Below, piece by piece: positions 32,171 to 47,144 of a DNA stretch of 64,000 nt. Position 1 is the first letter of the stretch. Every line of letters starts with the position of its first letter. Location: the NCBI RefSeq assembly GCF_900607225.1, contig NZ_LR027842.1, positions 2,322,980 through 2,386,979 on the forward strand, written 5' to 3'. Under the pieces are notes generated by a model. It had not been told where the DNA came from. It saw nothing but the letters and a program-made list of their open reading frames with translations, and searched no databases. The position numbers and the translations under genes are program-made. Source of the stretch: [Pseudopropionibacterium] massiliense (GTDB taxonomy: Bacteria; Actinomycetota; Actinomycetes; Propionibacteriales; Propionibacteriaceae).

Positions 32171-32202
32171 TCTCAAACAAAAACGATCGTTTCTATTTGA
32201 GA
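32171..32202. promoter_or_regulatory. 32-bp near-palindromic TetR operator
   Basis: TCTCAAA ... TTTGAGA arms flank a perfect centre AAACGATCGTTT. Only two symmetric position pairs of the 32 bp mismatch. It lies between the divergent hydrolase and TetR genes. Confidence 0.75.
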
Positions 32203-32268
32203 ATATGCGGTCGATCCGTGTGACACAAACACGGCCCTCCCGGGCGGGCGTGTGACAAGGTGGATCCC

Positions 32269-32895
32269 ATGCCCCGAGTGACCCAGGCCTTCCGCGACAG
32301 GCAGCGGGCCCGCATCTGTGTCGCGGCCGCCCACCGGTTCGCTCGCGTCGGGTTCCACGCCACGTCGATGGACGACATCATCGGCGAGACCGGGATGTCC
32401 TCCGCAACGGTGTACCGCTACTTCCCGGGGGGCAAGCAGGAGATCATCCGTGCGGTGTGCGCCCTGAGGATCGGGCGCGTGGTGGAGCAGCTCGACCAGC
32501 TGACCACGGATGCGAGGCTCCCGGGTGTGGCCGAGACGTTCGCGTCGGTCCTCGGGCTCCTGCACGACAGCGACACCGGAACCGATTTCAACACCTCCGC
32601 ACGGATCGCGGTGAACGCCTGGTCGGAGATGCCACGTGACCCCGAACTGCGCGAGGCGATGCGGAACCACTTCCTCACCGTCAGGGACCACCTGGTGATC
32701 CTGGCGACGCGGTGGTCGGCGGAGGGAGTGGTCGGCTGTTCCCCGGATGTGACCGCCGAGATCCTTCTGCACACGGCGCTGGGCCTGATCGCCGAGGAGG
32801 CCATCCTCGGGGGAACCGACACCGCGGAAGCCGGGGAAAGAGTGCAGCACCTGCTGGAGAGACTTCCACCCGACGCGACCGCCCCACCGCGGTGA
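32269..32895 (+). CDS. TetR/AcrR family regulator
   Basis: 208 aa. N-terminal HTH (ICVAAAHRFARVGFHATSMDDIIGETGMSSATVYRYFPGGKQEII) and a helical ligand-binding C-terminal domain. ATG at 32269 with AAGGTGG 5 nt upstream; a GTG 9 nt earlier is less likely. Divergent from the alpha/beta hydrolase across a 32-bp operator. Confidence 0.9.
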   Translation: MPRVTQAFRDRQRARICVAAAHRFARVGFHATSMDDIIGETGMSSATVYRYFPGGKQEIIRAVCALRIGRVVEQLDQLTTDARLPGVAETFASVLGLLHDSDTGTDFNTSARIAVNAWSEMPRDPELREAMRNHFLTVRDHLVILATRWSAEGVVGCSPDVTAEILLHTALGLIAEEAILGGTDTAEAGERVQHLLERLPPDATAPPR

Positions 32896-32915
32896 GGCGG
32901 TCGCGTGAGACATCA

Positions 32916-33387
32916 TCGACCAGGCCCGTCCCCGGGCCGAGACCTTGATCACAACCCCCGCCTGCGCCCCCAACCGGAGGAACGCGCCGGCGGTTGCCCC
33001 ACCGGCGGCGGTGTCATGCGCTTCCTGAATCGGCACGTCCAGAAGGACCCGCCACTCATCCAGTCGTTCCAGCAGCATGGCGTCGGTCACCTCGTCGGTG
33101 CGCAGCACCGGGACCGCCCCATGACCGCTCCACGCATGCAGCGCAACGGACTCGAACCGGGTCTCCTCGTCGACCCAGCTCACTTTCAGAGCAGCGTGTT
33201 TCCCGTCCGCGTGCCGAACAGGCAGGATCAGGGTGTACATCCCGTACATCGGCGGCCCCTCCCGGCGAAGATGCCACCCGTCGAGCACATCTGCCGCAGC
33301 ACCCGGCAACGTCTCCAGCCAGTCCCGGGTGGCCCCTCCCTCTCTGCCCGGGATCACGGCAGAGAACTCACGTGAGATCTGGATCAC
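32916..33387 (-). pseudogene. 5' remnant of an aminoglycoside/hydroxyurea phosphotransferase-like kinase
   Basis: The N-terminal 150 or so residues look like the APH(6)/hydroxyurea kinase family (TRDWLETLPGAAADVLDGWHLRREGPPMYGMYTLILPVR split over two strands; AALKVSWVDEETRFESVALHAW; AMLLERLD). Similarity stops near 32916 before the catalytic loop. The frame stays open only across the antisense of the TetR gene, so the C-terminal half is lost. Confidence 0.6.
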
Positions 33388-33922: not shown

Positions 33923-35560
33923 TCAGTCCTCCAGGAGGTCGTGGACCACGACGGAGAACTCCCCCCTGCCGATCGCATCCGTCAACGCGTCGACCTCCGG
34001 GGTCAGGACCCGGTCCTCACCCAGCGGCATGACCCGAGCCCGGAGCTGTTCGTGGATGCGCGCCGATCCCGTCCCCAGCGACAGTCCTCGCATTCGTTCC
34101 TCCAGCAGGTGGATGCCCTGTCCGCTGATGATGAACAGGACCGCCAGGAGCTGGTCGAAGCGGCGGCTGTTGGCCCGCAGGCCGTTGACCGCGGCCATCG
34201 CCATGGTGTGGAAGTCCTCCTGGCCACCCTTGAGGGGGAAGGACAGGGCCCCGACGGGGTTCGCGAGCAGCTGGATCTCGGGGATCAGGGCGGCCGCACT
34301 GGTGTGCAGCAGGAGCATGCCGGAGTTGAGGCCGGGTTCCCCTCCGCTCAGTCCGGCGGGAAGCCCGTGGCTCCAGCCGTCGTGCAGCAGCCGGGCCGCC
34401 AGGTCCTTGGTGAGCACCGCCAGCCGCGCCAGGCAGCTGTTCACCGACTGCGCCGCGTGCCCCAGCACCGTCGCGTCCCAGTTGCCGCCGGAGAGGAACT
34501 CGTAGCTCTCGCCCGTGTGGTCCGGGATGAGCATCGGGTTGCAGGTCGAGGAGTTGGCCTCGCGGGTGACGTCCTCCCGGGCCCGTTCCAGTTCCCGCAG
34601 GATGACGCCGATCTGGTGCGGCACCGACCGGACCGAGGTGGCGTCCTGGATGCGCGGGGCGCTCTCCCCTGCTCGGCGCCTGCCCTCGTCCGTCGCCCAC
34701 TGGCTGTCGCCGATGAGCCTCAGGATCAGGTCATTGGCCTGCATCTCCCAGGGCATGTGGCGTTCGGCGTGGATCCGCGGGTCGAAGGCGTTGCGTTCCA
34801 CCCTGGCGGCCTCGCAGAACAGCGCGAACGCGCCCAGGAAGGTCTCAACCTGCCGGTAGACCTCCTCGACGGCCAGCGCCAGGTGGGCCGTCAGCACGGC
34901 CGATCCCGAGATCAGCGCGATCGCCTCCCCCGGTGCCAGCTGGAACTCGACGTCTCGTCCCATGGCCGCCCACGCCCGGGGTGCGCAGCGTTCCGCACCG
35001 TCGTCGCCACACACCCTTCCCGCCACGTCCCCGGTCAGCGCCAGCCCGGCGGCCGCCATGGGTTGGAGGTCGCCGGTGCCCATGGAACCGGTGCCGGGCA
35101 TCACCGGGACGAGCCCCAGGTTGACGGCGTCGTTCATCCGCTCGACCAGTTCTGGACGGGCCCCGGAGGTGCCCCTGGCGAGGCAGTTAGCGCGGATGAT
35201 CAGGGCCAGCCGCGACACCCGGCGCGGCAGCGCCTCGCCCAGGCCGGTGCTGTGCGAACGCAGCACGTTGACCTGGAAGCGCAGCTGTTCCTCGGGCTCC
35301 AGCCGCCGGTCCTTGAACGGCCCGAGTGCCTGGTTCCAGCCGTAGGCCCTCATCCCGGGGTTCGATTCCAGGATTTCCAGCCCCGCCTCCCGGGCGCGCT
35401 GCATGTGGCTGCGTGACACGGGGTCAAGGGCGACCTCCACGTGTTCGGTTTTCAGGGCCGAGGCCAGGTCGCGCCAGGTCAGGGAGGCGCCGTTGAGGGT
35501 CAGTCGGAGCGGCCTGCTCCCTGCCCGGGAGCGTTTCTCGGGGGTCTCATGCCTGTGCAC
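33923..35560 (-). CDS. Histidine ammonia-lyase homologue lacking the MIO tripeptide; candidate ergothionase
   Basis: 545 aa of the aromatic amino-acid lyase fold. Family landmarks: AYGWNQALGPF (Tyr-loop), GTGSMGTGDLQPMA (MIO loop), DATSVRSVPHQIG, EANSSTCNPM and GGQEDFHTMAM. True HAL has A-S-G before DL to make the MIO electrophile; here the aligned residues are G-T-G, with no Ser. The gene is last in an operon with DUF917, a urocanase homologue, a URO-D protein and a Liv importer. Ergothionase, a HAL-related trimethylammonia-lyase acting on ergothioneine by acid/base catalysis, is the best-fitting role; that is an inference. The start overlaps the DUF917 stop by 14 nt. Confidence 0.72.
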   Translation of the reverse strand: MHRHETPEKRSRAGSRPLRLTLNGASLTWRDLASALKTEHVEVALDPVSRSHMQRAREAGLEILESNPGMRAYGWNQALGPFKDRRLEPEEQLRFQVNVLRSHSTGLGEALPRRVSRLALIIRANCLARGTSGARPELVERMNDAVNLGLVPVMPGTGSMGTGDLQPMAAAGLALTGDVAGRVCGDDGAERCAPRAWAAMGRDVEFQLAPGEAIALISGSAVLTAHLALAVEEVYRQVETFLGAFALFCEAARVERNAFDPRIHAERHMPWEMQANDLILRLIGDSQWATDEGRRRAGESAPRIQDATSVRSVPHQIGVILRELERAREDVTREANSSTCNPMLIPDHTGESYEFLSGGNWDATVLGHAAQSVNSCLARLAVLTKDLAARLLHDGWSHGLPAGLSGGEPGLNSGMLLLHTSAAALIPEIQLLANPVGALSFPLKGGQEDFHTMAMAAVNGLRANSRRFDQLLAVLFIISGQGIHLLEERMRGLSLGTGSARIHEQLRARVMPLGEDRVLTPEVDALTDAIGRGEFSVVVHDLLED

Positions 35561-36668
35561 GGGTTCCGCCGTCCGGGGTTTCCCGGCGTTCCGGGAGGTA
35601 TTTCAGGAACTCGATGCCCATGATCTCCTCGCACTCCCCGACGGCGACGCGGTCCACCGCCGAGGAGGACAGCGGCAGTTTCGTGGCGTCCACCTTCACC
35701 AGGGTCACCTCGCATCCCTCGGTGGCGTCCTTCACCGCCAGCGGCAGCCCGGTGTCCCTCCGGAGGATGACGATGGTGTCCGGGTAGGTGGCCACGCGCC
35801 CGCCGGGGCCGTCGATGGCCATGTACTCGTTGAGATAGGGGACGGTGTGCTCACCGATCCGGAAGGTTCCGTGGTCCCAGCCGCCTCTGGTGACGAGCTC
35901 CACCTCGTGGGCGAGCGGTCCCTCGTCGACGACCTCACCACCGAGGAAGTCCACAACCGTCCTGGTGACGCGTTTCCCGGCACGGGAACGGCCCGACCCG
36001 GTCTCCTCCATGGCCCTGCCGAGGTCGAGGGCCAGGGAGATCGCGCCCAGCGCGGCGTGTTCCTTCACCCAGCTGAGTTCGACGGGGTTACGGGCCGAGG
36101 CGATGAATCCTCCGGAGCGCACCGAGATGTCGCGCAGCACGTCGTCGCAGGTGTCGACGCGGCCGATGTTGATGCTCAGGAGGTGCCCGTGGAGGGCCCG
36201 GTTGCCGCCGGAGACCACCTGGATGGTTTCGTATCCCTCGCGGGTGGTCAGCCCGAGGGAGCCGAGTTTCCCGGTGGGGTGGGCGCGCACGTCGCCGGCC
36301 GCATCCAGGACCTTCACGCCGAGCACCGAGGACTGGATCCAGCCGTTGAGGGTGGTGGAGTAGCCGTTCTGCCCGGTGATGACGGCTGAGATGGGGTGTG
36401 GGGAGAGGTCGATCAGCTTTCTCAGCGCGTCGACGTAGTCGATGGGACGGATCTCCCAGTCGGGGGCGGCCGGGGCGCCGATCGCGGTGACGGTGGCCAC
36501 CCAGGAGTCCTCCGGCAGTTCGTCGACGCCGGCCAGCACGGGACGGTTGAGGGTGGTGGCCATCCGCCCCATCAGCTCCCCGTGGTCCTGCCAGCCCCCG
36601 CCGCCGCAGGCGAGGACGCCCCCGCCGAGAACGGCCCAGCGGGCGTCATCAATGGTCAGTTCGCGCAT
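35547..36668 (-). CDS. DUF917 family protein; (S-methyl-)thiohydantoin desulfurase candidate
   Basis: 373 aa, full-length DUF917. N-terminal glycine-rich segment VLGGGVLACGGGGWQDHGELM, conserved VTAIGAPAAPDWE and, in the C-terminal domain, DGPGGRVATYPDTIVILRRDTGLPLA. This family includes the metal-dependent enzymes that remove sulfur from the thiohydantoin made in bacterial ergothioneine or S-methyl-ergothioneine breakdown. Sitting between a urocanase and a HAL homologue, it probably acts on the product of the hydratase. Overlaps the lyase gene. Confidence 0.75.
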   Translation of the reverse strand: MRELTIDDARWAVLGGGVLACGGGGWQDHGELMGRMATTLNRPVLAGVDELPEDSWVATVTAIGAPAAPDWEIRPIDYVDALRKLIDLSPHPISAVITGQNGYSTTLNGWIQSSVLGVKVLDAAGDVRAHPTGKLGSLGLTTREGYETIQVVSGGNRALHGHLLSINIGRVDTCDDVLRDISVRSGGFIASARNPVELSWVKEHAALGAISLALDLGRAMEETGSGRSRAGKRVTRTVVDFLGGEVVDEGPLAHEVELVTRGGWDHGTFRIGEHTVPYLNEYMAIDGPGGRVATYPDTIVILRRDTGLPLAVKDATEGCEVTLVKVDATKLPLSSSAVDRVAVGECEEIMGIEFLKYLPERRETPDGGTRAQA

Positions 36669-36695
36669 GTCGGTTTTCCTTCGGGTCGGTGCGGG

Positions 36696-38372
36696 TCAGT
36701 TCCGGATCAGGGTGAGGGGTACGCCGTGCGCACCCGGTTCGTGGGATCGACGCACCGCGTCGAGGGCCTCCTCGTAGCCCGCGGTGGCGTGGCGGATGAC
36801 CCCGAGCCCGGAGTCGAGGTCGAGGGCCTGGCGCAGCCTGGTTGCCGCCGCCCCGGTGCCGTCGGCGACGACGGTGAGCCCCGCCGACTGCATCCATCCG
36901 GAGTAGCCGCCGCCCCCGGAGTGCACCGCCACCAAGTCGGCACCGCCGGTGGCCAGCAGCATGGCGTCGAGGATGGGCCAGTCCGTCACGCCGTCGGAGT
37001 CGTCGCGCATGCCCTCGGTACCGATTCTGGGGTGGGTCATGCCGGCCGAATCCAGGTGGTCGCGGCTGAAGGCGACCGGCGCACTGATCCGTCCGTCGGC
37101 GACGGCCTCGTTGACGGCGAGGGCCAGGGCCGAGCGTTCCCCGTACCCGAGCCAGCAGGACCGGGCGGGCAGACCCTGGGTGGGGATGTGGCGGCGAGCC
37201 AACCCGATCCACCGGGCGATCTCGGGGCGTTCGGGAAACATCGTCACCGCCAGGTCGTCGACCACCGCGAGGTCGTGGTCGTCGCCTGAGAGGATCATCC
37301 AGCGGAAGGGTCCGATCCCACGGCTGAACAGTGGTCGCAGGTAGCCCTCCATGAAACCGGGGATCTCCGCGAAGACCCGCTGTTTCTCGGTTTCGTCGAG
37401 GACCTGGGCGGCCTGCACCCTGAGGTTGTTGCCGTTCTCGAACACCACCGACCCGCGACGGCCGAGTTCCAACATGGCCTTCACCTGGGCTGCCATGGAG
37501 GCGCGGGCGTCGCGTTCCACCTGCTCCGGGTCGCTTTCGCGGGTCTCGGCCCAGGCGTCGAGGGTGTAGCCGGAGGGCAGGTAGCCGTAGCGGGCATCGT
37601 GGGCGGCGGTCTGGTCGGTCACGATGTCGGGGCGTGCGCCGCGGGCGACCACGGCGGGGAACACGTCGGCGGCGTTGCCCAGCAGCCCGACGGCGACGGG
37701 GCGGCGTTCGGTGGTCGCCGCGGTGATCGTGGCGAGGGCGCCGTCGAGGTCGTCGAGCACCAGGTCGATGCCGCCGGCAGCCCGGAGCCTGGCCAGTTTC
37801 GCGGGATCGGCCTCCACCACCAGGGTGGACAACTCCAGCATCCGTGCCGAGATCGGCTGGGAGGAGCCCATGCCGCCCAGCCCCGCGGTGAGCACCCAGC
37901 GGTGTGGGGCGGCCGGTTCCCGGAAGTGCTTTTCCAGGGCGGTGCGCAGCAGTTCGTAGGTGCCTCCCAGCACGCCCTGCCGGCCGATGTACTGCCAGGC
38001 CGCGGCGGTCAGCCCGCCCCAGATCGTCTTGTGTTCCGCCAACCGGGAGTAGAACTTCTCCTCCGTGGCCCAGTTCCCGACGGTGTTGTTCACCGCCGAG
38101 ACCACCATCGGGGCGGCGGCGTGGGTGTTCAGCACCGCCACGGGCCTGCCGGTCTGGAGCACCAAGGTCTGGTCCTCCTCGAGGCGTTGCAGGGCATCGG
38201 TGATCCGGTTGTAGGCGTCCCAATCCTTGACGGCCTTGCCGATGGATGCGTAGACGACCAGTTCCTCGGGTCTCTCCCCCACCTCGAGGACGTTCTCCAG
38301 CAGACGGAGCAGCGCCTCGGCCCGCCAGTTCCGACAGCGCAACTCGGTTCCCCTGCGGGCCGTGACGGTCAT
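36696..38372 (-). CDS. Urocanase family hydratase; candidate thiourocanate hydratase
   Basis: 558 aa, full-length urocanase fold. NAD-binding motif TAGLGGMGSSQP near 165, and the active loop TQGLPARSCWLGYGER near 410. The usual urocanase signature is FQGLPxRICW; here F is T and I is S beside the catalytic-region Cys, which suggests a changed substrate pocket. AAGGAAAGGAA lies before the ATG. The NAD-dependent water addition would convert (S-methyl-)thiourocanate to the thiohydantoin handled by the DUF917 protein. Ordinary urocanase (HutU) remains possible. Confidence 0.78.
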   Translation of the reverse strand: MTVTARRGTELRCRNWRAEALLRLLENVLEVGERPEELVVYASIGKAVKDWDAYNRITDALQRLEEDQTLVLQTGRPVAVLNTHAAAPMVVSAVNNTVGNWATEEKFYSRLAEHKTIWGGLTAAAWQYIGRQGVLGGTYELLRTALEKHFREPAAPHRWVLTAGLGGMGSSQPISARMLELSTLVVEADPAKLARLRAAGGIDLVLDDLDGALATITAATTERRPVAVGLLGNAADVFPAVVARGARPDIVTDQTAAHDARYGYLPSGYTLDAWAETRESDPEQVERDARASMAAQVKAMLELGRRGSVVFENGNNLRVQAAQVLDETEKQRVFAEIPGFMEGYLRPLFSRGIGPFRWMILSGDDHDLAVVDDLAVTMFPERPEIARWIGLARRHIPTQGLPARSCWLGYGERSALALAVNEAVADGRISAPVAFSRDHLDSAGMTHPRIGTEGMRDDSDGVTDWPILDAMLLATGGADLVAVHSGGGGYSGWMQSAGLTVVADGTGAAATRLRQALDLDSGLGVIRHATAGYEEALDAVRRSHEPGAHGVPLTLIRN

Positions 38373-38386
38373 ACGGTTCCTTTCCT

Positions 38387-39328
38387 TCAGTTCGTGAGGG
38401 CCACGTCCACGCCCCGCCTGAGGCCGACGAACGCCAGAGGGTTGGTGTCGGAGTGGAGCGTGCAGTTGGGTGCCACGATCAGGCGGTCCCCCGCGGCGCG
38501 GCGCGCCCTGACGACGTGCGCGGCCGCCTCGCTGGGGGTCCAGTAGAGGCTGGTGAGCTCGTCGATCCCGACCATCGGCACCCAGCCGTAGCGGCTCGTG
38601 GCCTCGGGAATGGTGGGTGCCGATGACGTGTCGGACCAGCTCAGCACCTCGACAGGATAGTCGGTGATCAGCTCCGGGTCGGCTTCCTCGCCGTGCAGGT
38701 GCGCGATCCGCACCAGCGACGGCGCGGCGGCAAGCACCTGGATGTCGTAGGGGGCCACCCAGTCGCGGAACTGTTCAGGGGTCAGACCGAAGCTGGTGGC
38801 GTCCCTGCTGGCCCCGTTGACGGCGACGAACAGACCATCGACACCGAGCCCGTCCAGCCCGGCCGCGTAGCGGGCCAGGACGTCGGCCACCCGGGAGATG
38901 GTGCGGTGCGCGAGCGCCGGATCCACCTTGAAATACTCGATGACGCTGCCGCCGAGTGCCCTGACGAGGGCCTGGGTGGGTGAGAACACCGTCTCGATGA
39001 CGGCGGCCTCGGGGGCGGCGGCGCGGATCAGTTCCAGCACCTCGTGTTGCTTGGCGTGACTGTCGAGCGGCGCCCCGGGATCGGCCAGGACGTCGTCGAG
39101 CTGCGCGGGGTCGGTGATCTCCTCGAGCCCCTCGGGCAGGTCGATGCGGTAGTCGTGCATGACCTTGATGAAGTCCCAGTCGTAGTCGCGGTAGAACCTC
39201 AGGTGGGCATCAGCCACCTGTTGCGGGCTCCATCTCGCCGACCCGTAGTGCACCCAGGCCCCGACCGGGGGCCGGTCGGTGGTGCCACCCTGGGCGGCGG
39301 TCAGGAATCGGTCACGTTTGGTCGTCAT
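38387..39328 (-). CDS. URO-D superfamily protein (methyltransferase-like), role unknown
   Basis: 313 aa TIM-barrel of the uroporphyrinogen decarboxylase superfamily (DRFLTAAQGGTTDRPPVGAWVH; DWDFIKVMHDYR; LIVAPNCTLHSDTNPLAFVGLR). It lacks the RQAGR start motif of true HemE. The C-terminal region APNCTL is where MtaA/CmuA-type cobamide methyltransferases place a zinc Cys. In this operon a role in methyl or methylthio transfer from a methylated substrate is conceivable, but this is speculation. The start overlaps the LivF stop by 17 nt. Confidence 0.7.
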   Translation of the reverse strand: MTTKRDRFLTAAQGGTTDRPPVGAWVHYGSARWSPQQVADAHLRFYRDYDWDFIKVMHDYRIDLPEGLEEITDPAQLDDVLADPGAPLDSHAKQHEVLELIRAAAPEAAVIETVFSPTQALVRALGGSVIEYFKVDPALAHRTISRVADVLARYAAGLDGLGVDGLFVAVNGASRDATSFGLTPEQFRDWVAPYDIQVLAAAPSLVRIAHLHGEEADPELITDYPVEVLSWSDTSSAPTIPEATSRYGWVPMVGIDELTSLYWTPSEAAAHVVRARRAAGDRLIVAPNCTLHSDTNPLAFVGLRRGVDVALTN

Positions 39329-40067
39329 CGTCGTCTCCGTTTCGTGTGGTGCGCCCCAGGTAGGCCTCCTGGACGCGCGGATTGTCCAACAGTTCTCCGG
39401 CCGGTCCCTCGAGCACGAGGTTCCCGGTGGCCAGCACGTAGCCGTGGTGGGCGATGCTGAGGGCCAGTTCCGCCTGCTGTTCGACCATGAGCACGGCCAG
39501 TCCCAGGTCGGTGTTCAACGCGGCGATGGTGTCGAGGACCTCGTCCACGAGGCGGGGTGACAGACCCATTGTCGGTTCGTCCATGCAGATCAGCCGGGGG
39601 CGGCTCATGAGTGCCCGGGCGAAGGCGAGCATCTGCTGTTCCCCGCCCGACATGGTCCCGGCCGCCTGGCGCCGTCGCTGCCCGAGGCGGGGGAAGCGGT
39701 CGTACTGGGCCGCCAGGTCGTCGCGGATGCCGGTTCTGTCGCGCCGCGTGTAGGCGCCCATCAGGAGGTTCTCCTCCACGGTCATGGGTGCGAAGATGCG
39801 GCGCGCCTCGGGCACCGAGGCGATGCCCGAGGCCACCCTGCGTGACGTCGGCCAGGTGGTGATGTCCTGCCCGTCCAGCAGCACCCTGCCCCGTTGGGGG
39901 CGAACCAGACCCAGGATGGTCTTCATCGTGGTGGACTTGCCGGATGCGTTCCCGCCGAGCAGCGAGACGATCCGCCCCTTGGGGACCGTCAGGTTCACCC
40001 CGTTGAGGGCCTTGGCCTGTCCGTAGCTGACCTCGATCCCCTGCAGTTCCAGCAGCGTCTCAGGCAT
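39312..40067 (-). CDS. livF: Branched-chain-type ABC importer ATPase, LivF-like
   Basis: 251 aa. Walker A LLGGNASGKSTTMK, signature MSGGEQQMLAFARAL, Walker B LICMDEPTMGLSP, and the LivF features EARRIFAPMTVEENLLMGA and VEQQAELALSIAHHGYVL. ATG at 40067 has AAGGAGGAG upstream. Overlaps livG by 8 nt. Confidence 0.9.
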   Translation of the reverse strand: MPETLLELQGIEVSYGQAKALNGVNLTVPKGRIVSLLGGNASGKSTTMKTILGLVRPQRGRVLLDGQDITTWPTSRRVASGIASVPEARRIFAPMTVEENLLMGAYTRRDRTGIRDDLAAQYDRFPRLGQRRRQAAGTMSGGEQQMLAFARALMSRPRLICMDEPTMGLSPRLVDEVLDTIAALNTDLGLAVLMVEQQAELALSIAHHGYVLATGNLVLEGPAGELLDNPRVQEAYLGRTTRNGDDDDDQT

Positions 40068-40977
40068 CGTCTCCTCCTTCCCGGTCATTGCGTGCCCGTT
40101 CCTCGCGGGCGCGGCGGCGTGCGTCCTCCGGCCTGCCGAGGTAGGCCTCGATGACGGCAGGGTCGTTCCTGACCTGTTCGGGCGGTCCCGAGGCGATCAC
40201 GTGGCCGTCGTCCATCACGAGCACGTGGTCGGACAGTGTCATGACCAGGTCGAGTTTGTGCTCCACGAGCAGGATCGACTGCCCCGCCGCCTTGAGGCGG
40301 AGAAGTTGTTCCAGCATCTCGGCGGTCTCGGACTGGTTCATTCCCGCGGTCGGTTCGTCGAGGACCAGCAGGGTTGGGTCTCCCGCGAGGGAGCGGGCAA
40401 TCTCGGTGCGACGCCGGTTCGCGTAGCTGAGGGTGTGGGCAAGGTCGTCGGCGCGGTCACCGAGGCGTTCGGGGAACCTGTCGATCCCGGCCGTCACTCG
40501 CTGCCTGATTCTTTCGCGTTCCTTCCTGACCCCGGGTAGAGGCAGCAGCGCCGCGAGCACCTCACCGAGCAGCGGCAACCAGCCGAGGGACCAGCGCAGG
40601 ACGGGGATCTCCGCCAGGTGTTTCAGGGGACGGTGGGCCTTCAGGTCGCGGTGCAGGCCGACGGAGATGTTCTCCGCGACGGTCAGATTCCCGAAGACGC
40701 GACCGTTCTGGAAGGTCCGCAGCACCCCGGCCGTCGCGACCTCCTCGGGATGACGGGCCGCCACCGCGTGGCCTCGGATCGCGATCTTCCCGGAGTTTGG
40801 CCGCAGCACCCCCGTCACCAGGTTGAGGGTGGTGGTCTTGCCCGACCCGTTGGGTCCGATGATCGCCACGGTCTGTCCCGGGGCGACCTCCAGGTCGACG
40901 CCGGCGACGGCATGGACCCCCTCGAAGTGGCGGTGCAGACCGGTTGCTTTCAGCACGGGCGTGGTGGGTGTGGTCAT
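40060..40977 (-). CDS. livG: Branched-chain-type ABC importer ATPase, LivG-like
   Basis: 305 aa. Walker A IGPNGSGKTTTLN, LivG-type FQNGRVFGNLTVAENISVGLH, signature LSYANRRRTEIARSLA in the variant form used by LivG, Walker B LLVLDEPTAGMNQSE, and switch VEHKLDLVMTLSD. It has the longer LivG helical insert (LKHLAEIPVLRWSLGWLPL). Two adjacent ATGs; the second (40977) is 6 nt from GAGGAG. Confidence 0.9.
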   Translation of the reverse strand: MTTPTTPVLKATGLHRHFEGVHAVAGVDLEVAPGQTVAIIGPNGSGKTTTLNLVTGVLRPNSGKIAIRGHAVAARHPEEVATAGVLRTFQNGRVFGNLTVAENISVGLHRDLKAHRPLKHLAEIPVLRWSLGWLPLLGEVLAALLPLPGVRKERERIRQRVTAGIDRFPERLGDRADDLAHTLSYANRRRTEIARSLAGDPTLLVLDEPTAGMNQSETAEMLEQLLRLKAAGQSILLVEHKLDLVMTLSDHVLVMDDGHVIASGPPEQVRNDPAVIEAYLGRPEDARRRAREERARNDREGGDDA

Positions 40978-42794
40978 CATGCTCTCCTCGTCCACAGTCC
41001 CTGGGGCAGGAAACGGATGATCGCGATCACGACGACCCCGTAGAGCAGGATGCGCACGTCGGGAGCCAGGCGCAGCGCCTCGGGCAACCCGACCAGGGCC
41101 AGGGAGCCGAGCACCGCCCCGAAGGGGGAGTTCATCCCGCCCAGCACGACGATCGTCAGCACCAGCACGGACATCTGGACGGTGAACACCGTCGGGTCGA
41201 GGTAGTTGTACTGGTGCGCCAGCAGTGCCCCCGCGATCCCCGCGAAGAAGGCGGCCAGCGCGTAGGCGAGTGCCTTGTAGCCGCGGGTGCGCAGCCCCAG
41301 GGAACGCGACGCGATCTCGTCGGAGCCGACGGCGGCCAGGACGTTGCCCAGGTGGGAGGAACGGATCCTGAACACGACGAACAGCGTGATCGCGAGTATC
41401 ACCAGGTCGAGCTGGTAGTGGTCCTCGGCCACCAGCAGCCGCAACCCGAGGATCTCCGGGGCGGGGATGCCGGAGAGCCCGTAGGCGCCCTTGGTGACCG
41501 CATCCCAGCCGCGGATCACCGACAGCACGATGTAGCCGAGGGCCAGGGTCGCCATGGACACGTAGTGGCCGTCGAGCCTCCAGATCGGCAGGGTCACCAG
41601 GGTGGCCAGCACTGCCGCGATCACCCCGGCCAGCAGCAGGGCCACCAGGAAGGGCAGGTTCAGGCGCATCACCAGCAGCGCGGATGCGTAGGCGCCGATG
41701 GCGACGGGCGCCGCCTGTCCGAGGGAGATCTGTCCGGTTGATCCGGCCAGCAGCGTCATGGGGACCGCGATGATGGCGTAGATCGCCACCTGGGTGCCGA
41801 CGGAGCTGGGCACCGGACCGCCCAGCAGCGGCACCGCCAGGCCCGCGACCAGGGCGAGCAGCACCCAGTGCCACCACACCAGCCTGGGTGGGCGGCCGGC
41901 CCCGAGGAAGGTGCCGGTCATGGGTTCGGATGCGACGGCGTGCCGGGAACCGAACAGCCCGTGGGGTCGCAGCAGCAGCACCAGCAGAAAAGCGCCGAAG
42001 ATGAACAGGTCCCGGGCACCGCCGCCGAACTGGTAGATGCCGAGCGCCTCCAGCAGGCCGATCACGAACCCGCCGGCCACGGCGCCGACGATGGATCCCA
42101 GGCCTCCGACCGCTGCGGCGATGAAGCCGACGGTTCCGGTGAAGGAGGCCGAGTAGGGCGAGATGACACCCGCGTACATGCCGAAGAAGATTCCCCCGAT
42201 CCCACCCAGGCAGGAGGCCAGCAGGAAGGACAGGTTCTGGACCCTTTTCACGGGAATCCCCATCTGGCGGGCGGCGTCCGGGTCGGAGGCGGTGGCGCGC
42301 ACGGCCAGACCGTCGCGCCCGAACCGCAGCCACGCCCACAGGGCCAGCATCGAGGCGATGGTGAAGCCGAAGGCGACCGCGTCGGAGGTGCCGAGTCTGA
42401 CCCCGCCGACGGGCAGGTTGTCGGTCGGCAGCGGGGCAGGGTACTCGCGAGTGTCGGCCGTGAACAGGATCTGGCTCAGGTTGTCGAGCACCATGGAGGC
42501 GGCGAAGGTGGCGAGCAGCGCCGCGATCGGGGGCGCCTTGATCAGGGGACGTACCGCGGTGAGGTTGACGACCCAGCCGATCAGGGCGCTGGAGGCGGCC
42601 ACCGCCAGCAGTGCCAACCACCACGGCCACCCGCACACGTCGATGAACCACCAGCCGAGCATCGCGCCGAAACCGACGATGGAGCCCTGGGCGAAGTTGA
42701 CCACGCCCGTGACGCCGAAGATCAGGGAGATGCCGACGGCGACCAGCGCGTAGACGTTGCCGTGGACGAGTCCCGAGACGATCGTGTCGATCAT
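40977..42794 (-). CDS. Fused LivH-LivM ABC permease
   Basis: 605 aa carrying both permease subunits in one chain. Residues 1-295 are LivH (VSGLVHGNVYALVAVGISLIFGVTGVVNFAQGS; ATASDPDAARQMGIPVKRV; GFIAAAVGGLGSIVGAVAGGF). About 310-605 are LivM (LLAGSTGQISLGQAAPVAIGAYASA; GHYVSMATLALGYIVLSVI; GLRTRGYKALAYALAAFFAGIAGAL; VLGGMNSPFGAVLGSLAL). Its ATG overlaps the binding-protein stop (ATGA). Normally these are two genes; the linker (EPMTGTFLGAGRPPR) has no stop. Confidence 0.9.
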   Translation of the reverse strand: MIDTIVSGLVHGNVYALVAVGISLIFGVTGVVNFAQGSIVGFGAMLGWWFIDVCGWPWWLALLAVAASSALIGWVVNLTAVRPLIKAPPIAALLATFAASMVLDNLSQILFTADTREYPAPLPTDNLPVGGVRLGTSDAVAFGFTIASMLALWAWLRFGRDGLAVRATASDPDAARQMGIPVKRVQNLSFLLASCLGGIGGIFFGMYAGVISPYSASFTGTVGFIAAAVGGLGSIVGAVAGGFVIGLLEALGIYQFGGGARDLFIFGAFLLVLLLRPHGLFGSRHAVASEPMTGTFLGAGRPPRLVWWHWVLLALVAGLAVPLLGGPVPSSVGTQVAIYAIIAVPMTLLAGSTGQISLGQAAPVAIGAYASALLVMRLNLPFLVALLLAGVIAAVLATLVTLPIWRLDGHYVSMATLALGYIVLSVIRGWDAVTKGAYGLSGIPAPEILGLRLLVAEDHYQLDLVILAITLFVVFRIRSSHLGNVLAAVGSDEIASRSLGLRTRGYKALAYALAAFFAGIAGALLAHQYNYLDPTVFTVQMSVLVLTIVVLGGMNSPFGAVLGSLALVGLPEALRLAPDVRILLYGVVVIAIIRFLPQGLWTRRA

Positions 42795-43960
42795 GAGGCC
42801 TCCGCCGGCACGTAGCTGCCGTTCTTGACTGTGACGGGCAGGAGTGTGACGTCGCCGGGGCGGCGATCGGCGGAGAACTCGAACTCCCCGAACTGCACGG
42901 TGCTCCACCTGCCGCCGTCGGAAAGGGCCTTGAAGACACCCTCCCGGGTGGCGCCGCCACGCCGGACCGCCTCGACCAGCACGTTGAGGGCGTCGTAGGC
43001 GTAGGCGGAGAAGGTACTGGGGTCGTGCCCGAACCTGTCCTTGAACCGCTTGTTGAAGTCGACGACCGCCGGGGAGTCGTTGCCGATCAGGAAGTTCTCG
43101 ATGATGATCGTTCCCTCCGCGGCGGATCCTGCGGCCTCCAGGAACTGCGGGGTGTTCTGGCCGCCGAAGAACTGGCCCGTGAAACCGATCTCCCGCAGCT
43201 GCCGCACGATGCGCGCGCCGTCGGGTCCGTAGCCGAGGTGGACGACGGCCTGCGGTCCGGCGTCGCGGGCCTTGATCAGGACGGGACGGTAGTCCTCGGA
43301 GTCGGGTTGGATGGGTGACTCGTATGCGATCTCCAGTCCGGCCTCCACGGCGGCCGCCTTGAAGATGTCGAAGGAGTTCTTGCCCCAGTCGCTCTCGAGG
43401 TAGACCAGCGATATTTTCTGATATTTGGCGGCGATCCACTGGGCGGCGCGGGTCTGGTAGAACTCCTGGGTCAGGGATGTGGACCACATGTGGTCGCCGC
43501 CCTTGGTGAAGTCGGGGTTGGAGTTGGTGAAACCGAACTGCACGAGCCCCGCCTGCTGGTAGGTGGCCGACGCGGCCATCGAGGCCCCGGAGGAGAAGTC
43601 CCCCAGCTCCGCTATGACGGCGGCGTCGGCGACGAACTTCTGCGCGATCGGCACCGATTGTTTCGGGTCGGACTGGGAGTCCTCCCATTTCAGTTCCACC
43701 TTGCGGCCGTCCACTCCCCCGGCTGCGTTGAGTTCCTCGAGGGCCAGGTCGAAGCCCTCCTGCCAGTACTGGCCGTACTCGGCGCTGGCCCCGGTTCTCG
43801 GTCCCGAGACCCCGAAGATGACCGCCCCGCCCTGATCGGCGGCGCCGCTCCCGGACGCGCCGGCCCGGGAGAGGGCGCTGCAGGCACTCAATGCCGCGAA
43901 TACGGGAATGGCTCCGACCAAGGCACGGCGGGATAGATTTCTGGGCATGGCAATACTCAT
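42791..43960 (-). CDS. livK: ABC importer substrate-binding lipoprotein, LivK-like
   Basis: 389 aa. Lipoprotein signal peptide with lipobox LSAC, then a periplasmic-binding-protein type I domain (VIFGVSGPRTGASAEYGQYWQEGFDLALEELN is the typical first strand-helix; QFGFTNSNPDFTKGGDHMWST; SAYAYDALNVLVEA). It delivers the substrate to the LivHM fusion. Start ATG 43960 or 43948; both give an intact lipobox. First gene of the catabolic operon. Liv-type receptors bind amino acids and betaine-like or other small acids, so a histidine betaine is plausible. Confidence 0.88.
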   Translation of the reverse strand: MSIAMPRNLSRRALVGAIPVFAALSACSALSRAGASGSGAADQGGAVIFGVSGPRTGASAEYGQYWQEGFDLALEELNAAGGVDGRKVELKWEDSQSDPKQSVPIAQKFVADAAVIAELGDFSSGASMAASATYQQAGLVQFGFTNSNPDFTKGGDHMWSTSLTQEFYQTRAAQWIAAKYQKISLVYLESDWGKNSFDIFKAAAVEAGLEIAYESPIQPDSEDYRPVLIKARDAGPQAVVHLGYGPDGARIVRQLREIGFTGQFFGGQNTPQFLEAAGSAAEGTIIIENFLIGNDSPAVVDFNKRFKDRFGHDPSTFSAYAYDALNVLVEAVRRGGATREGVFKALSDGGRWSTVQFGEFEFSADRRPGDVTLLPVTVKNGSYVPAEAS

Positions 43961-44234
43961 TTCTGGGCAGGGTTGAACATCGCCGGAAATGGACGGCGAA
44001 TTGGAAAGCGAAAACCAAACGGAGAACCGCTTCAGGAGGACGAAATCAGCCACCTCGGAAATCGGGGATGGGCGACGAGCCGGCCGCGCTCAGGCGACCC
44101 TCGGGCTCAAGAAGCCTGGCCGAAAAGGATCAACAGGGACGACAACAACACATGCAGGCAGGGCAGAACACGACCGGGCCGGTCAGGATCGCTGCATGCT
44201 GCATGATTGCTCCCATGGTTGATGGACTGTTTCC

Positions 44235-44263
44235 AACCTATGTCCTTGTTGACCTGCTGTCAA
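44235..44263 (-). promoter_or_regulatory. Promoter and inverted repeat upstream of the Liv/lyase operon
   Basis: Minus strand: TTGACA (44258-44263), 17-nt spacer, TAGGTT (44235-44240). The -35 is embedded in TTGAC-AGCAG-GTCAA (44249-44263), a perfect inverted repeat that looks like an operator. Transcription would give an untranslated leader of about 270 nt (43961-44230), in which no gene or known RNA element is recognised. Confidence 0.55.
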
Positions 44264-44393: not shown

Positions 44394-44645
44394 TCAACCG
44401 ACGAGTCGTCGATACGCGGCTCGGGCTTTCATGGCGTGGATGATCTCGACTTCGCCGTCGTCCTAGAGCAGGACGACGATCTCCAGGAGGCGACCTGCTG
44501 TGTCCAGCCCGATCCGTGGCTCCCGTTGCGGACTCTCATCATCGAGCGGTCCACCAGCCAGCGCTGAGCGTGCGGCAGCGATGGCGTCCTCGTCACTGAT
44601 GCCGTGCTTGCGTGCTGACGGCGAGACGATCACGCACGGGCCCAT
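44394..44645 (-). pseudogene. RelE/BrnT-like toxin gene with in-frame TAG
   Basis: Reads PSARKHGISDEDAIAAARSAL, later DTAGRLLEIVVLL, then TAG at 44463-44465 and continues in frame DDGEVEIIHAMKARAAYRR to a TGA at 44394. Related toxins have an aromatic residue at this place, so a single TAC to TAG change would explain it. It overlaps the upstream antitoxin gene by 16 nt. The truncated product lacks the last strand and the IHAMKAR motif, so it is probably inactive. Confidence 0.7.
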
Positions 44646-44878
44646 TCACGCACAGCGGTACGGATCGCCGTTGAGCGGTCGAGTCCTTCACGCTCCGCAC
44701 GTGCCATCAACTCGCTCAACTCTTCATCAGAGAACCGGGTCGGCACCACCCGAGATGCTTTGCCCGCACGAGGGGGACGCCCCCACCGTCGCTGTAGCTC
44801 GTCGACTTCGTAGCCCGTTTCTGCCTCATCCGCCCAAGCCTGCACTTGCTCATCCGAGATTTCACGGCCTTGAATCAT
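44630..44878 (-). CDS. Ribbon-helix-helix (CopG-like) antitoxin
   Basis: 82 aa. The C-terminal half has an RHH pattern (SRVVPTRFSDEELSELMARA, then EREGLDRSTAIRTAVREWA). Antitoxins of this kind precede or follow RelE/BrnT-like toxins. Its partner toxin downstream carries a nonsense codon, so the antitoxin may be orphaned. A perfect 18-bp palindrome 20 nt upstream should be its autoregulatory operator. Confidence 0.82.
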   Translation of the reverse strand: MIQGREISDEQVQAWADEAETGYEVDELQRRWGRPPRAGKASRVVPTRFSDEELSELMARAEREGLDRSTAIRTAVREWARA

Positions 44879-44898
44879 GTGCTTCCCCACAACAACCA

Positions 44899-45245: not shown

Positions 45246-47144
45246 TCAGTCCTCCGGGTCCTCGGCCGCCACGAACCAGTGCACCTGGTAGGGATCGAGG
45301 CTGAGGGTTGCGGGGTCCAGATCCCAGGTCACGTCGTCGAGAAGCTCCTTGGCCCTGCTGCCGTAGGGGGTGCGCAACAGCCCCATGGGGATGCTGACCC
45401 TGTGTTCGGAGAGGTTGTAGAGCTGATACATGGGGCCGATCGGGTGGTCGCGGCGGATCGCCAACACCCTGTGGTCACCGACGTCGAGGATGCGCGACTC
45501 GTAGCCGGCGTGCAGCTGCGGGGTGGCGCGGCGCACGTCGAGCACGTGCCTCAGCCACGCGTTGACGCGCGCCTGGGCGGAGTCGGGGTTCTCGGCCAGC
45601 GCGGCCACGGCGTCCCAGTCCATGACGGGGCGGTGCACCCAGCGGTTGTCCTCGGCGTGCGCGGGGTCGTCGCCGTAGTGGTAGTCGTTGAGCATCGCCA
45701 GTTCGTCGCCCATGTAGATCAGCGGCACACCGCCGAACCCGCAGATCACGGCGTGCAGCATGTTGATGCGCGCCACGGCCAGGTCGATGGCCTCCTTGTC
45801 CTTCGACTCGAGGGCCACCTCCAGTCCGGCGAGGGAGGCCAGGGTGCCGGAGATGCGCCGGTCGCCGGTGACGGGGTTGGCCTGGAACACCAGGCCGCGG
45901 GCGAACGATTTCGGGAACTCCCCGGAGTAGAAGTCGGACAGGAACCGGCGGTGCTCGGCCCCGTTGATGCCGACCGCGGCGGCGTCGCGATCGTCCACGG
46001 CCCAGCCGATGTCATCGTGGCAGCGCACGTAGGTTCCCCAAGTGGCCGTCGGGGGTTTCGCGGGGAACCGTTCGAGGGCGTAGCGCAGCAGCGTCACATC
46101 GCGACTGGCCAGCGCCGACCACAGCTGGGCCATCAGCGAGTTGTGATAGGCCAGATCGGAGAGTTTCCCGTAGTGGCGGCCCTGACCGAAGTAGGCGATC
46201 AGGTCGCGCGGGCCGACGATGGCCTCGGCCTTGAACACGACCGCCGGGGCCGCGATCCGCACCGCGGCCCGCAGCGCCTCCGCGAGTTCGTGGACGGGAG
46301 GTTCGTTCTGGCAGTCGGTGCCCATCTGTTTCCAGATGAAGGCTATGGCGTCCAACCGCAGCACCTCGACACCGTGGTTCGCGAGGTTGCAGATGATCTC
46401 CAGGTACTCGCAGAAGACGTCGGGGTTCGCCCAGTTCACGTCCCACTGGTAGTCGTTGAAGGTGGTCCACACCCAGCCTGCGAGCTCCTCGTCCCAGGTG
46501 AAGTTCCCGGGGGCGAAGTCCGGGAACACCTCGGGCAGGGTCTGTTCGTACTGGTCCGGGATGGTGCGGTCGGGGTAGATCATGAAGTAGTCGCGGTACT
46601 TCTGCTCGCCCGCCCGGGCGCGGCGGGCCCATTCGTGTTCCTTGGCGACGTGGTTGAGCACCAGGTCGACCACCAGCGAGATGCCGCGTTCCCGCAGCCC
46701 CTTCGCCACCTCCGCGAGATCGTCCATGGTTCCGAGGTCGCTGCGGATGGAGCGGTAGTCGGCCACCGCGTAGCCGCCGTCGTTGGCGCCCTCACGGGGT
46801 TGCAGCAGCGGCATCAGGTGCAGGTAGGTGACCCCGAGGTCGTGCAGGTAGTCGAGGTGTCCGAGGATCCCGTTCAGGGTGCCGGCGAACCGGTCCGTGT
46901 AGCAGACGTAGCCCGTCATGCCGGGTTGCTGCAGCCAGTCGGGGCGCAGCAGGCGTGCCTCGTCCAGCCTGCGCAGGTCGGCGGGACGCTCCTCGAGCGT
47001 CTTCTTCACGATTCCGCGCACCCGTTCCACCAGAGCGTCGGTCTTGTCTCCGTAGACGTTGCGCAGCGCCGTTGTCAGCTCATCTCCGTAGCGGTTCCAC
47101 CGCAGTTCCAGGACGTCGTCAATGTCACCCATGGCGGCCAGCAT
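45246..47144 (-). CDS. Amylosucrase (GH13_4)
   Basis: 632 aa, the usual length for amylosucrase, which makes alpha-1,4-glucan from sucrose or cleaves sucrose. Helical N-terminal domain, then the (beta/alpha)8 barrel: [51 protein letters not shown], nucleophile Asp in [16 protein letters not shown], acid/base Glu in VFKAEAIVG, and third acid in [14 protein letters not shown]-terminal beta domain from about 540. Single gene with no sugar regulator beside it. ATG at 47144; 47132 is an alternative. Confidence 0.93.

Follow-up and report, generated by a model that had tools for sequence, protein, structure and literature searches.

The stretch analysed here (the window) comprises 64,000 nucleotides of [Pseudopropionibacterium] massiliense (contig NZ_LR027842.1, positions 2,322,980 to 2,386,979). 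It carries a minus-strand operon at 44263-33923 that, with a probability of roughly 0.6, imports ergothioneine, or a closely similar 2-thioimidazole betaine, and strips out its sulfur for sulfur scavenging. Ergothioneine is a dietary antioxidant. The operon contains, in this order, a cysteine-rich leader open reading frame (ORF), a Liv-type importer (binding protein, fused LivH-LivM permease, LivG and LivF), a URO-D protein, a urocanase-fold protein (the hydratase), a DUF917 protein and a lyase of the histidine ammonia-lyase (HAL) fold. From the binding protein onward, neighbouring gene ends overlap or sit within about 30 bases. A sequence-only reading had proposed an operon for ergothioneine or S-methyl-ergothioneine, and all the genes it named are present. 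The same gene order recurs in three more stretches from the genus (L110, L111 and L131; L and G numbers denote stretches and genomes) and, from LivF onward, in L022. Since hydratase, DUF917 and lyase (the trio) also co-occur in stretches from other families, the association of these genes is more than chance.

Independent lines give the proposed ergothioneine pathway good support: an altered lyase active site, the closest protein models, complete clusters in eight of 11 relatives, and two stretches in which a betaine-type importer adjoins the trio. The thiourocanate route is the likely pathway class, with ergothioneine itself as the simplest substrate, and we infer the substrate of the Liv importer and the step of the URO-D protein. 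The three enzymes are predicted to catalyse the reactions of ergothionase, thiourocanate hydratase and thiohydantoin desulfurase, yet each departs from the known family in at least one respect.

The lyase lacks the MIO triad

The lyase (33923-35560) scores 336 bits with Pfam Lyase_aromatic, and the fold of its structure model (predicted local distance difference test, pLDDT, 89.8) matches HAL and ergothionase. Histidine ammonia-lyases have GSVG-ASG-DL, whereas the operon lyase reads GSMG-TG-DL (GSMG-TGDLQP in place of GSVGASGDL), a deletion of one residue in the triad from which the 4-methylideneimidazol-5-one (MIO) group is made. Thus, MIO cannot form. The HAL residues Asn195 and Tyr280 are replaced by Ser and Thr. 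Among the 120 homologues listed of 424 scored, the triad is lost in 104 and kept in 16. It is missing from all 22 lyases encoded in the same stretch as a hydratase and a DUF917 protein (the window, L110, L111, L131, L022-L025, L031, L032, L037, L041, L067, L071, L072, L103-L105 and L165-L168), though these come from several divergent lyase groups, while lyases in hut-like contexts, for example L090 and L096, retain it. The operon enzyme is best described as a putative MIO-less trimethylamine lyase, not a histidine ammonia-lyase.

The HAL fold without the triad is shared with ergothionase, which is itself reported to lack MIO in the excerpts of a 2026 study (PMC13405746), and the ergothionase chain of Treponema denticola (PDB 6s7j) has lost one residue in the same way (SIGEGDIT). 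The operon lyase differs from the T. denticola/Burkholderia type in sequence, in its group in the best tree and in the position of a Lys. The T. denticola enzyme scores 65 bits to the operon lyase versus 270 to the Burkholderia arboris protein. In the best tree (50 rows; the named row L099 was missing from the input), the operon lyase stands among MIO-bearing lyases, split from the known ergothionase group with support of 100/100, although a single MIO-less group, that is one origin, was not rejected by the approximately unbiased test (p 0.328). For the catalytic residues of ergothionase we assume a Lys near position 383 of the printed T. denticola chain and Glu 411; the Glu is kept in the operon lyase as E448. 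The lyases of L165-L168 and L103 are likewise without the ergothionase Lys.

On these sequence comparisons, the operon lyase family is unlike the ergothionase already known to degrade ergothioneine and is not closely related to it, and the best tree hints at a second origin of MIO loss. We put forward as a tentative idea, in which doubt still predominates, that a second MIO-less trimethylamine lyase family evolved independently in Actinomycetota through the same one-residue deletion of the triad. Such a convergent ergothionase would form the front end of a shortened, cysteine-attenuated and sulfur-only ergothioneine scavenging in Propionibacteriaceae and Rothia. No description of this lyase family or of the operon turned up in the open-access literature searched. 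According to the excerpts of the 2026 study, ergothionase is restricted to few genera and divergent homologues are not accounted for (PMC13405746); the operon lyase family would be a divergent candidate of the kind left out there. Two listed protein clusters of this family represent 634 and 60 member sequences. If the proposal is true, bacterial ergothioneine turnover and trimethylamine release have been underestimated, organisms unable to reduce sulfate can draw their sulfur from ergothioneine, and the loss of MIO, as a means of turning an ammonia-lyase into an amine lyase, took place on more than one occasion.

The hydratase and the DUF917 protein

The thiourocanate-hydratase-like protein (36696-38372) scores 718 bits with NF058530 (thiourocanate hydratase), 646 bits with NF058531 (the S-methyl enzyme) and 596 bits with hutU. 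As controls, three HutU proteins encoded in hut-like surroundings reach 922, 944 and 964 bits with hutU and 678, 676 and 691 bits with NF058530, while the B. arboris hydratase scores 1050, 768 and 706 bits with the NF058530, S-methyl and hutU models, respectively. The hydratase of Agrobacterium Ach5 reaches 975 bits with the S-methyl model. In a tree of 45 rows (root unknown; seven rows with partial or fused ORFs dropped), operon-type hydratases group with 7ned, L103, L104, L105 and L108, and a branch with support of 100/97 divides them from HutU, L107 and 8q9u. Forty positions distinguish 19 HutU rows, most of them drawn from the order to which the window belongs, from four thiourocanate rows; at these, the operon hydratase is thiourocanate-type at 25, HutU-type at six and neither at nine. 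Compared with thiourocanate hydratase proper, the operon protein lies on the same side of the tree and fits this model best of the three, yet it forms a long-branched subgroup of its own. PDB entries 7ned and 8q9u are labelled urocanate hydratase, while they score as thiourocanate hydratase (1014 bits) and S-methyl thiourocanate hydratase (961 bits), respectively, over the NCBIfam cut-offs.

The thiohydantoin-desulfurase-like DUF917/S-Me-THD protein (35547-36668) scores 355 bits with NF058529 (thiohydantoin desulfurase) versus 235 bits with NF058532 (the S-methyl enzyme); the Burkholderia protein reaches 608 bits with NF058529. A PDB sequence search with this protein gave no match. By these scores, both operon enzymes fit the non-methylated thiourocanate and thiohydantoin enzymes better than the S-methyl or histidine ones, which counts against the S-methyl part of the initial reading. 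A DUF917 gene with 39% identity and one in-frame TAG is found at G367:C1:468573-469625 (L169), in a genome that has Liv and URO-D genes with no trio there.

The trio in other genomes

The lyase search returned 80 loci, at least 53 of which carry a MIO-less lyase; five (L030, L053, L055, L083 and L095) were left unclassed for the triad because of ORF length or a partial match. Hydratase and DUF917 accompany 11 of the 53, from Propionibacteriaceae (L022), Rothia (L023, L071), Nocardia (L024), Pseudonocardia (L025, L032, L067), Amycolatopsis (L031), Sciscionella (L037, L072) and Allokutzneria (L041). Eight of these 11, all except L022, L023 and L071, also have genes for a hydantoinase and a carbamoylase.

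An importer with an OpuAC binding protein follows the trio in Rothia L071 and in L166, another member of the Propionibacteriaceae, and Rothia L023 has the same ATPase and two permeases beside the trio. The binding protein of L071 scores 88 bits with ProX and 72 bits with the ergothioneine binding domain EgtUC. Such a quaternary-ammonium importer adjoining the trio fits a betaine substrate. The EgtU ergothioneine importer of S. pneumoniae, as described in excerpts of PMC9732360, belongs to the same OpuAC superfamily as the Rothia importer, whereas that of the window is Liv-type.

Other lyases without the triad occur in different settings. In L165-L168, from other Propionibacteriaceae, hydratase and DUF917 are accompanied by lyases of a clearly distinct MIO-less group, so the lyase seems exchangeable. 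In L026-L030, L038-L076 and others (Saccharothrix, Nonomuraea, Streptomyces), MIO-less lyases of the same family have signal-peptide-like N-termini and no hydratase or DUF917 nearby; these are perhaps secreted amine lyases. On a plasmid of Paracoccus saliphilus (L199, 5911-7599), a MIO-less lyase directly follows a complete hut set (hutI, hutH, hutG, hutU), an order that would suit a supply of hercynine-derived urocanate to histidine degradation. L198 (5974-7593) and L200 (2953-4458) hold MIO-less lyases that carry an ammonia-lyase annotation; their neighbours are genes for ornithine cyclodeaminase and for PhnD/SsuA-type binding proteins, with no DUF917, an arrangement that makes another betaine-lyase pathway possible.

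A cysteine-rich leader precedes the operon

A promoter-like site read from the sequence (TTGACA, 17-base spacer, TAGGTT; 44235-44263) and a leader ORF encoding MQHAAILTGPVVFCPACMCCCRPC followed by a stop codon (44130-44204) fill the upstream part of the interval first assigned to the operon. In the alignment, the promoter hexamers are kept in the rows of the same-genus relatives G003, G004 and G356 and not in G367. The leader holds six Cys in its last 12 codons, a number reached by none of 500 shuffles. Like ORFs lie at the same place in L110, L111 and L131 and before trio-less Liv and URO-D genes in L132 and L136. The window and these five stretches have 6, 4, 4, 5, 4 and 7 Cys in the last 12 codons, which were reached by 0, 2, 0, 0, 1 and 0 of 500 shuffles, respectively. 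Overall, six of the eight stretches carry ahead of Liv a leader whose last 12 codons include at least four Cys, and thirteen other upstream regions in the window have at most two Cys. The aligned leaders differ in length by 3 or 6 bases, and G003 and G004 are set apart by three silent and three non-silent codon changes. Before the hydratase in Rothia, Pseudonocardia and others no like leader was found, though by the same loose criterion a few short ORFs there have at least three Cys.

In mycobacteria, polycysteine short ORFs have been reported to act as cysteine-responsive attenuators (Canestrari 2020, as cited in excerpts of PMC9094748 and PMC9031893). Like them, the window has a sulfur-linked operon headed by a short ORF in which Cys codons stand side by side. 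It differs in having a Shine-Dalgarno-like GGGAG before the ORF and a promoter some 30 bases upstream, so the window leader ORF is probably not leaderless. By analogy, the leader probably raises operon expression under cysteine shortage. A candidate second leader of pattern TGYTGYTGYNNNTGYTRA, which the window's own leader does not fit, had two matches in G000, the genome of the window; the one followed up lies antisense within a conserved 686-aa ORF, presumably phosphate acetyltransferase, and was rejected.

Sulfur supply and the proposed route

Sulfite/nitrite reductase (PF01077) was found in none of the five operon-bearing genomes of the genus (G000, G003, G004, G356 and G017) versus 18 of the 34 others, in a search that was positive in 11 of 14 control genomes. 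The odds of drawing five of the 21 negatives from 39 genomes are 0.035 (calculated by hand). The 3'-phosphoadenosine 5'-phosphosulfate reductase family (PF01507) was likewise absent from the four genomes searched, that of the window among them, and present in 14 of 14 controls. Taken together, the cysteine-rich leader and the lack of these sulfate-reduction families suggest that the operon serves to supply sulfur, and a route that ends at sulfide, under such a leader and seemingly without sulfate reduction, is best read as sulfur scavenging.

In the proposed mechanism, the Liv importer would bring ergothioneine in, which is the weakest step. The lyase would then eliminate trimethylamine to give thiourocanate, as its active-site loss and its neighbours suggest; no MIO would be needed because trimethylamine is a better leaving group than ammonia. 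Given their family placement, the hydratase may convert thiourocanate to thiohydantoin propionate, and the DUF917 enzyme may release sulfide and leave hydantoin propionate. The sulfide would feed cysteine synthesis, while the carbon part is probably discarded, since the two later steps to glutamate are seemingly missing. The URO-D protein, as a putative zinc methyltransferase, might handle a methylated form of the imported compound, which is a guess. Judging by the leader ORF and the mycobacterial precedent, expression would rise when cysteine is short.

Several observations weigh against this scavenging route. The ergothionase Lys is not kept in the lyase family, which has His, Thr or Gln at that place, and the operon lyase has another invariant Lys, K444. 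The other 42 MIO-less loci have neither hydratase nor DUF917 in the available stretch, some of them on short contigs, so the lyase family may have other substrates. Against the curated cut-offs (930 bits for NF058530, 880 for the S-methyl hydratase, 375 for HutU, 440 for NF058529 and 450 for NF058532), the hydratase (718 of 930) and the DUF917 protein (355 of 440) both stay below those of the ergothioneine pathway and are best called relatives, not proven members. The hydratase also passes the hutU cut-off, as does the proven-type Burkholderia protein. The Liv and URO-D genes occur without hydratase, DUF917 and lyase within 18 kb in L132, L136, L138 and L139, so the importer may carry another compound. 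L138 has no leader and L139 a weak one with two Cys (reached by 43 of 500 shuffles). A special RNA structure in the leader was rejected, as its fold is no better than those of shuffles (z -0.62); a consensus fold of five leader sequences was set aside, as it extends over coding sequence. The five genomes behind the sulfite-reductase association are related to one another. Finally, hydantoinase-like matches far from the operon in four genomes reach 84-93 bits at 27-29% identity, among them a weak match at G000:C1:1278818-1279993 (84.7 bits, 27% identity), and the carbamoylase search of the four genomes, which found none, had no positive control.

The importer and the URO-D protein

The importer comprises a substrate-binding protein (Peripla_BP_6; PF13458, 200 bits) with a lipoprotein-like N-terminus (42791-43960), a fused LivH-LivM permease of 605 aa matched twice by PF02653 (40977-42794), and the LivG (40060-40980) and LivF (39312-40088; profile match) ATPases. 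The binding-protein ORF opens at 44053, with an ATG at 43960, and its best PDB match is 3hut (167 bits). LivG occupies the 3' part of ORF 40060-42960; a single 966-aa Liv fusion encoded by this ORF was rejected, as the frame before LivG is non-coding and the permease lies in another frame.

URO-D follows LivF directly in the window, L110, L111, L131, L022, L132, L135, L136, L138 and L139, while L133, L134 and L137 have URO-D without a neighbouring LivF. Liv and URO-D without the trio thus form a module in itself, to which the trio was joined in the window's group, and the importer may not be the dedicated one first proposed. It is conceivable, though rather unlikely, that this module imports a different sulfur compound, with the trio merely under the same cysteine-responsive control and ergothioneine entering through a betaine-type transporter. 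The four stretches with the module alone and the OpuAC-type importer beside the trio in L071 and L166 argue for such separate import, but module and trio form one operon in five genomes. Moreover, a Liv-type importer adjoins the S-methyl-type cluster on the pAt plasmid of Agrobacterium tumefaciens Ach5 (L107, 2638-16951), which makes Liv importers for such compounds plausible. There, a Liv importer, DUF917, hydratase, carbamoylase, hydantoinase, a glutathione-transferase-like gene and a molybdopterin S/N-oxide reductase lie in one run. Liv importer, DUF917 and hydratase are shared with the window operon, whereas both Ach5 enzymes exceed the S-methyl cut-offs, the later enzymes and the molybdopterin reductase are present, and there is no lyase within the stretch.

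The URO-D protein (38387-39328; PF01208) has counterparts of at least 48% identity in the family, where 13 of 198 genomes, its own included, encode it; a search of the class found it in its own genome alone among 296. A PDB sequence search returned chance matches only. The structure model (pLDDT 94.1) has the URO-D/MtaA fold, with the MtaA-type methyltransferase 4ay7 as best match (E 1.5e-13, template modelling score 0.78 by query) and uroporphyrinogen decarboxylases matching almost as well. Across 35 aligned rows, H210, G213 and C289 never vary and H212 hardly does. Members of the URO-D superfamily methylate or demethylate sulfur, and S-methyltransferases among them have His-Cys-Cys zinc sites, according to excerpts of PMC10418091; the URO-D protein departs from this pattern (H210-x-H212...C289), its middle Cys being replaced by His. 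The protein is probably a zinc methyltransferase that likely performs a methyl transfer step.

These features also bear on the unlikely case that the true import is S-methyl-ergothioneine or another S-methylated betaine, which URO-D demethylates so that the thiol form enters the lyase route. The sulfur chemistry and zinc sites of the superfamily, the MtaA-type fold match with invariant H210 and C289, and the cysteine-rich leader that accompanies Liv and URO-D even without the trio in L132 and L136 would suit it. On the other side stand the His as middle zinc ligand, the nearly equal match to uroporphyrinogen decarboxylases, a hydratase and a DUF917 protein that are not of the S-methyl type, and an operon within which no corrinoid-protein gene was noticed.

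Nitrogen, carbon and histidine

As in other bacteria, ergothioneine might serve mainly as a nitrogen or carbon source, with unrecognised later enzymes elsewhere in the genome. The complete clusters of the eight relatives and the weak hydantoinase-like match in G000 lend this some support, and according to the excerpts of PMC13405746 Burkholderia induces its ergothionase when ergothioneine is the only source of nitrogen. We regard such a role as improbable here in view of the cysteine-rich leader, the absent sulfate-reduction families and the lack of a carbamoylase match in the search without a positive control. Ordinary histidine degradation by HutH and HutU, which the Pfam names and the hutU score of the hydratase might suggest, was rejected as very improbable because the lyase lacks the MIO triad and scores 267 bits with hutH against a cut-off of 539, the hydratase lies on the thiourocanate side and DUF917 is present. 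Searches of the organism's own genome gave a single PF00221 lyase and a single hit with the thiourocanate-hydratase/urocanase model, and did not extend to HutI or HutG.

Neighbouring genes

Upstream of the operon, at 44470-44880 on the minus strand, an antitoxin-like ribbon-helix-helix ORF beginning MIQGREISDEQVQAWADEAETGYE is followed by a toxin-like frame that, by eye, is broken by a stop; this looks like a decayed toxin-antitoxin pair. Further upstream lies a minus-strand gene of the alpha-amylase family (45246-47144), as it does in L111 (97% identity) and L131 (91%). Repeats of the amylase gene flanking the operon were considered and rejected, as tblastn gave no match. On the other side of the operon, a minus-strand gene (32173-33387) encodes a protein with a partial match to PF04655 (aminoglycoside/hydroxyurea kinase) of 50 bits.

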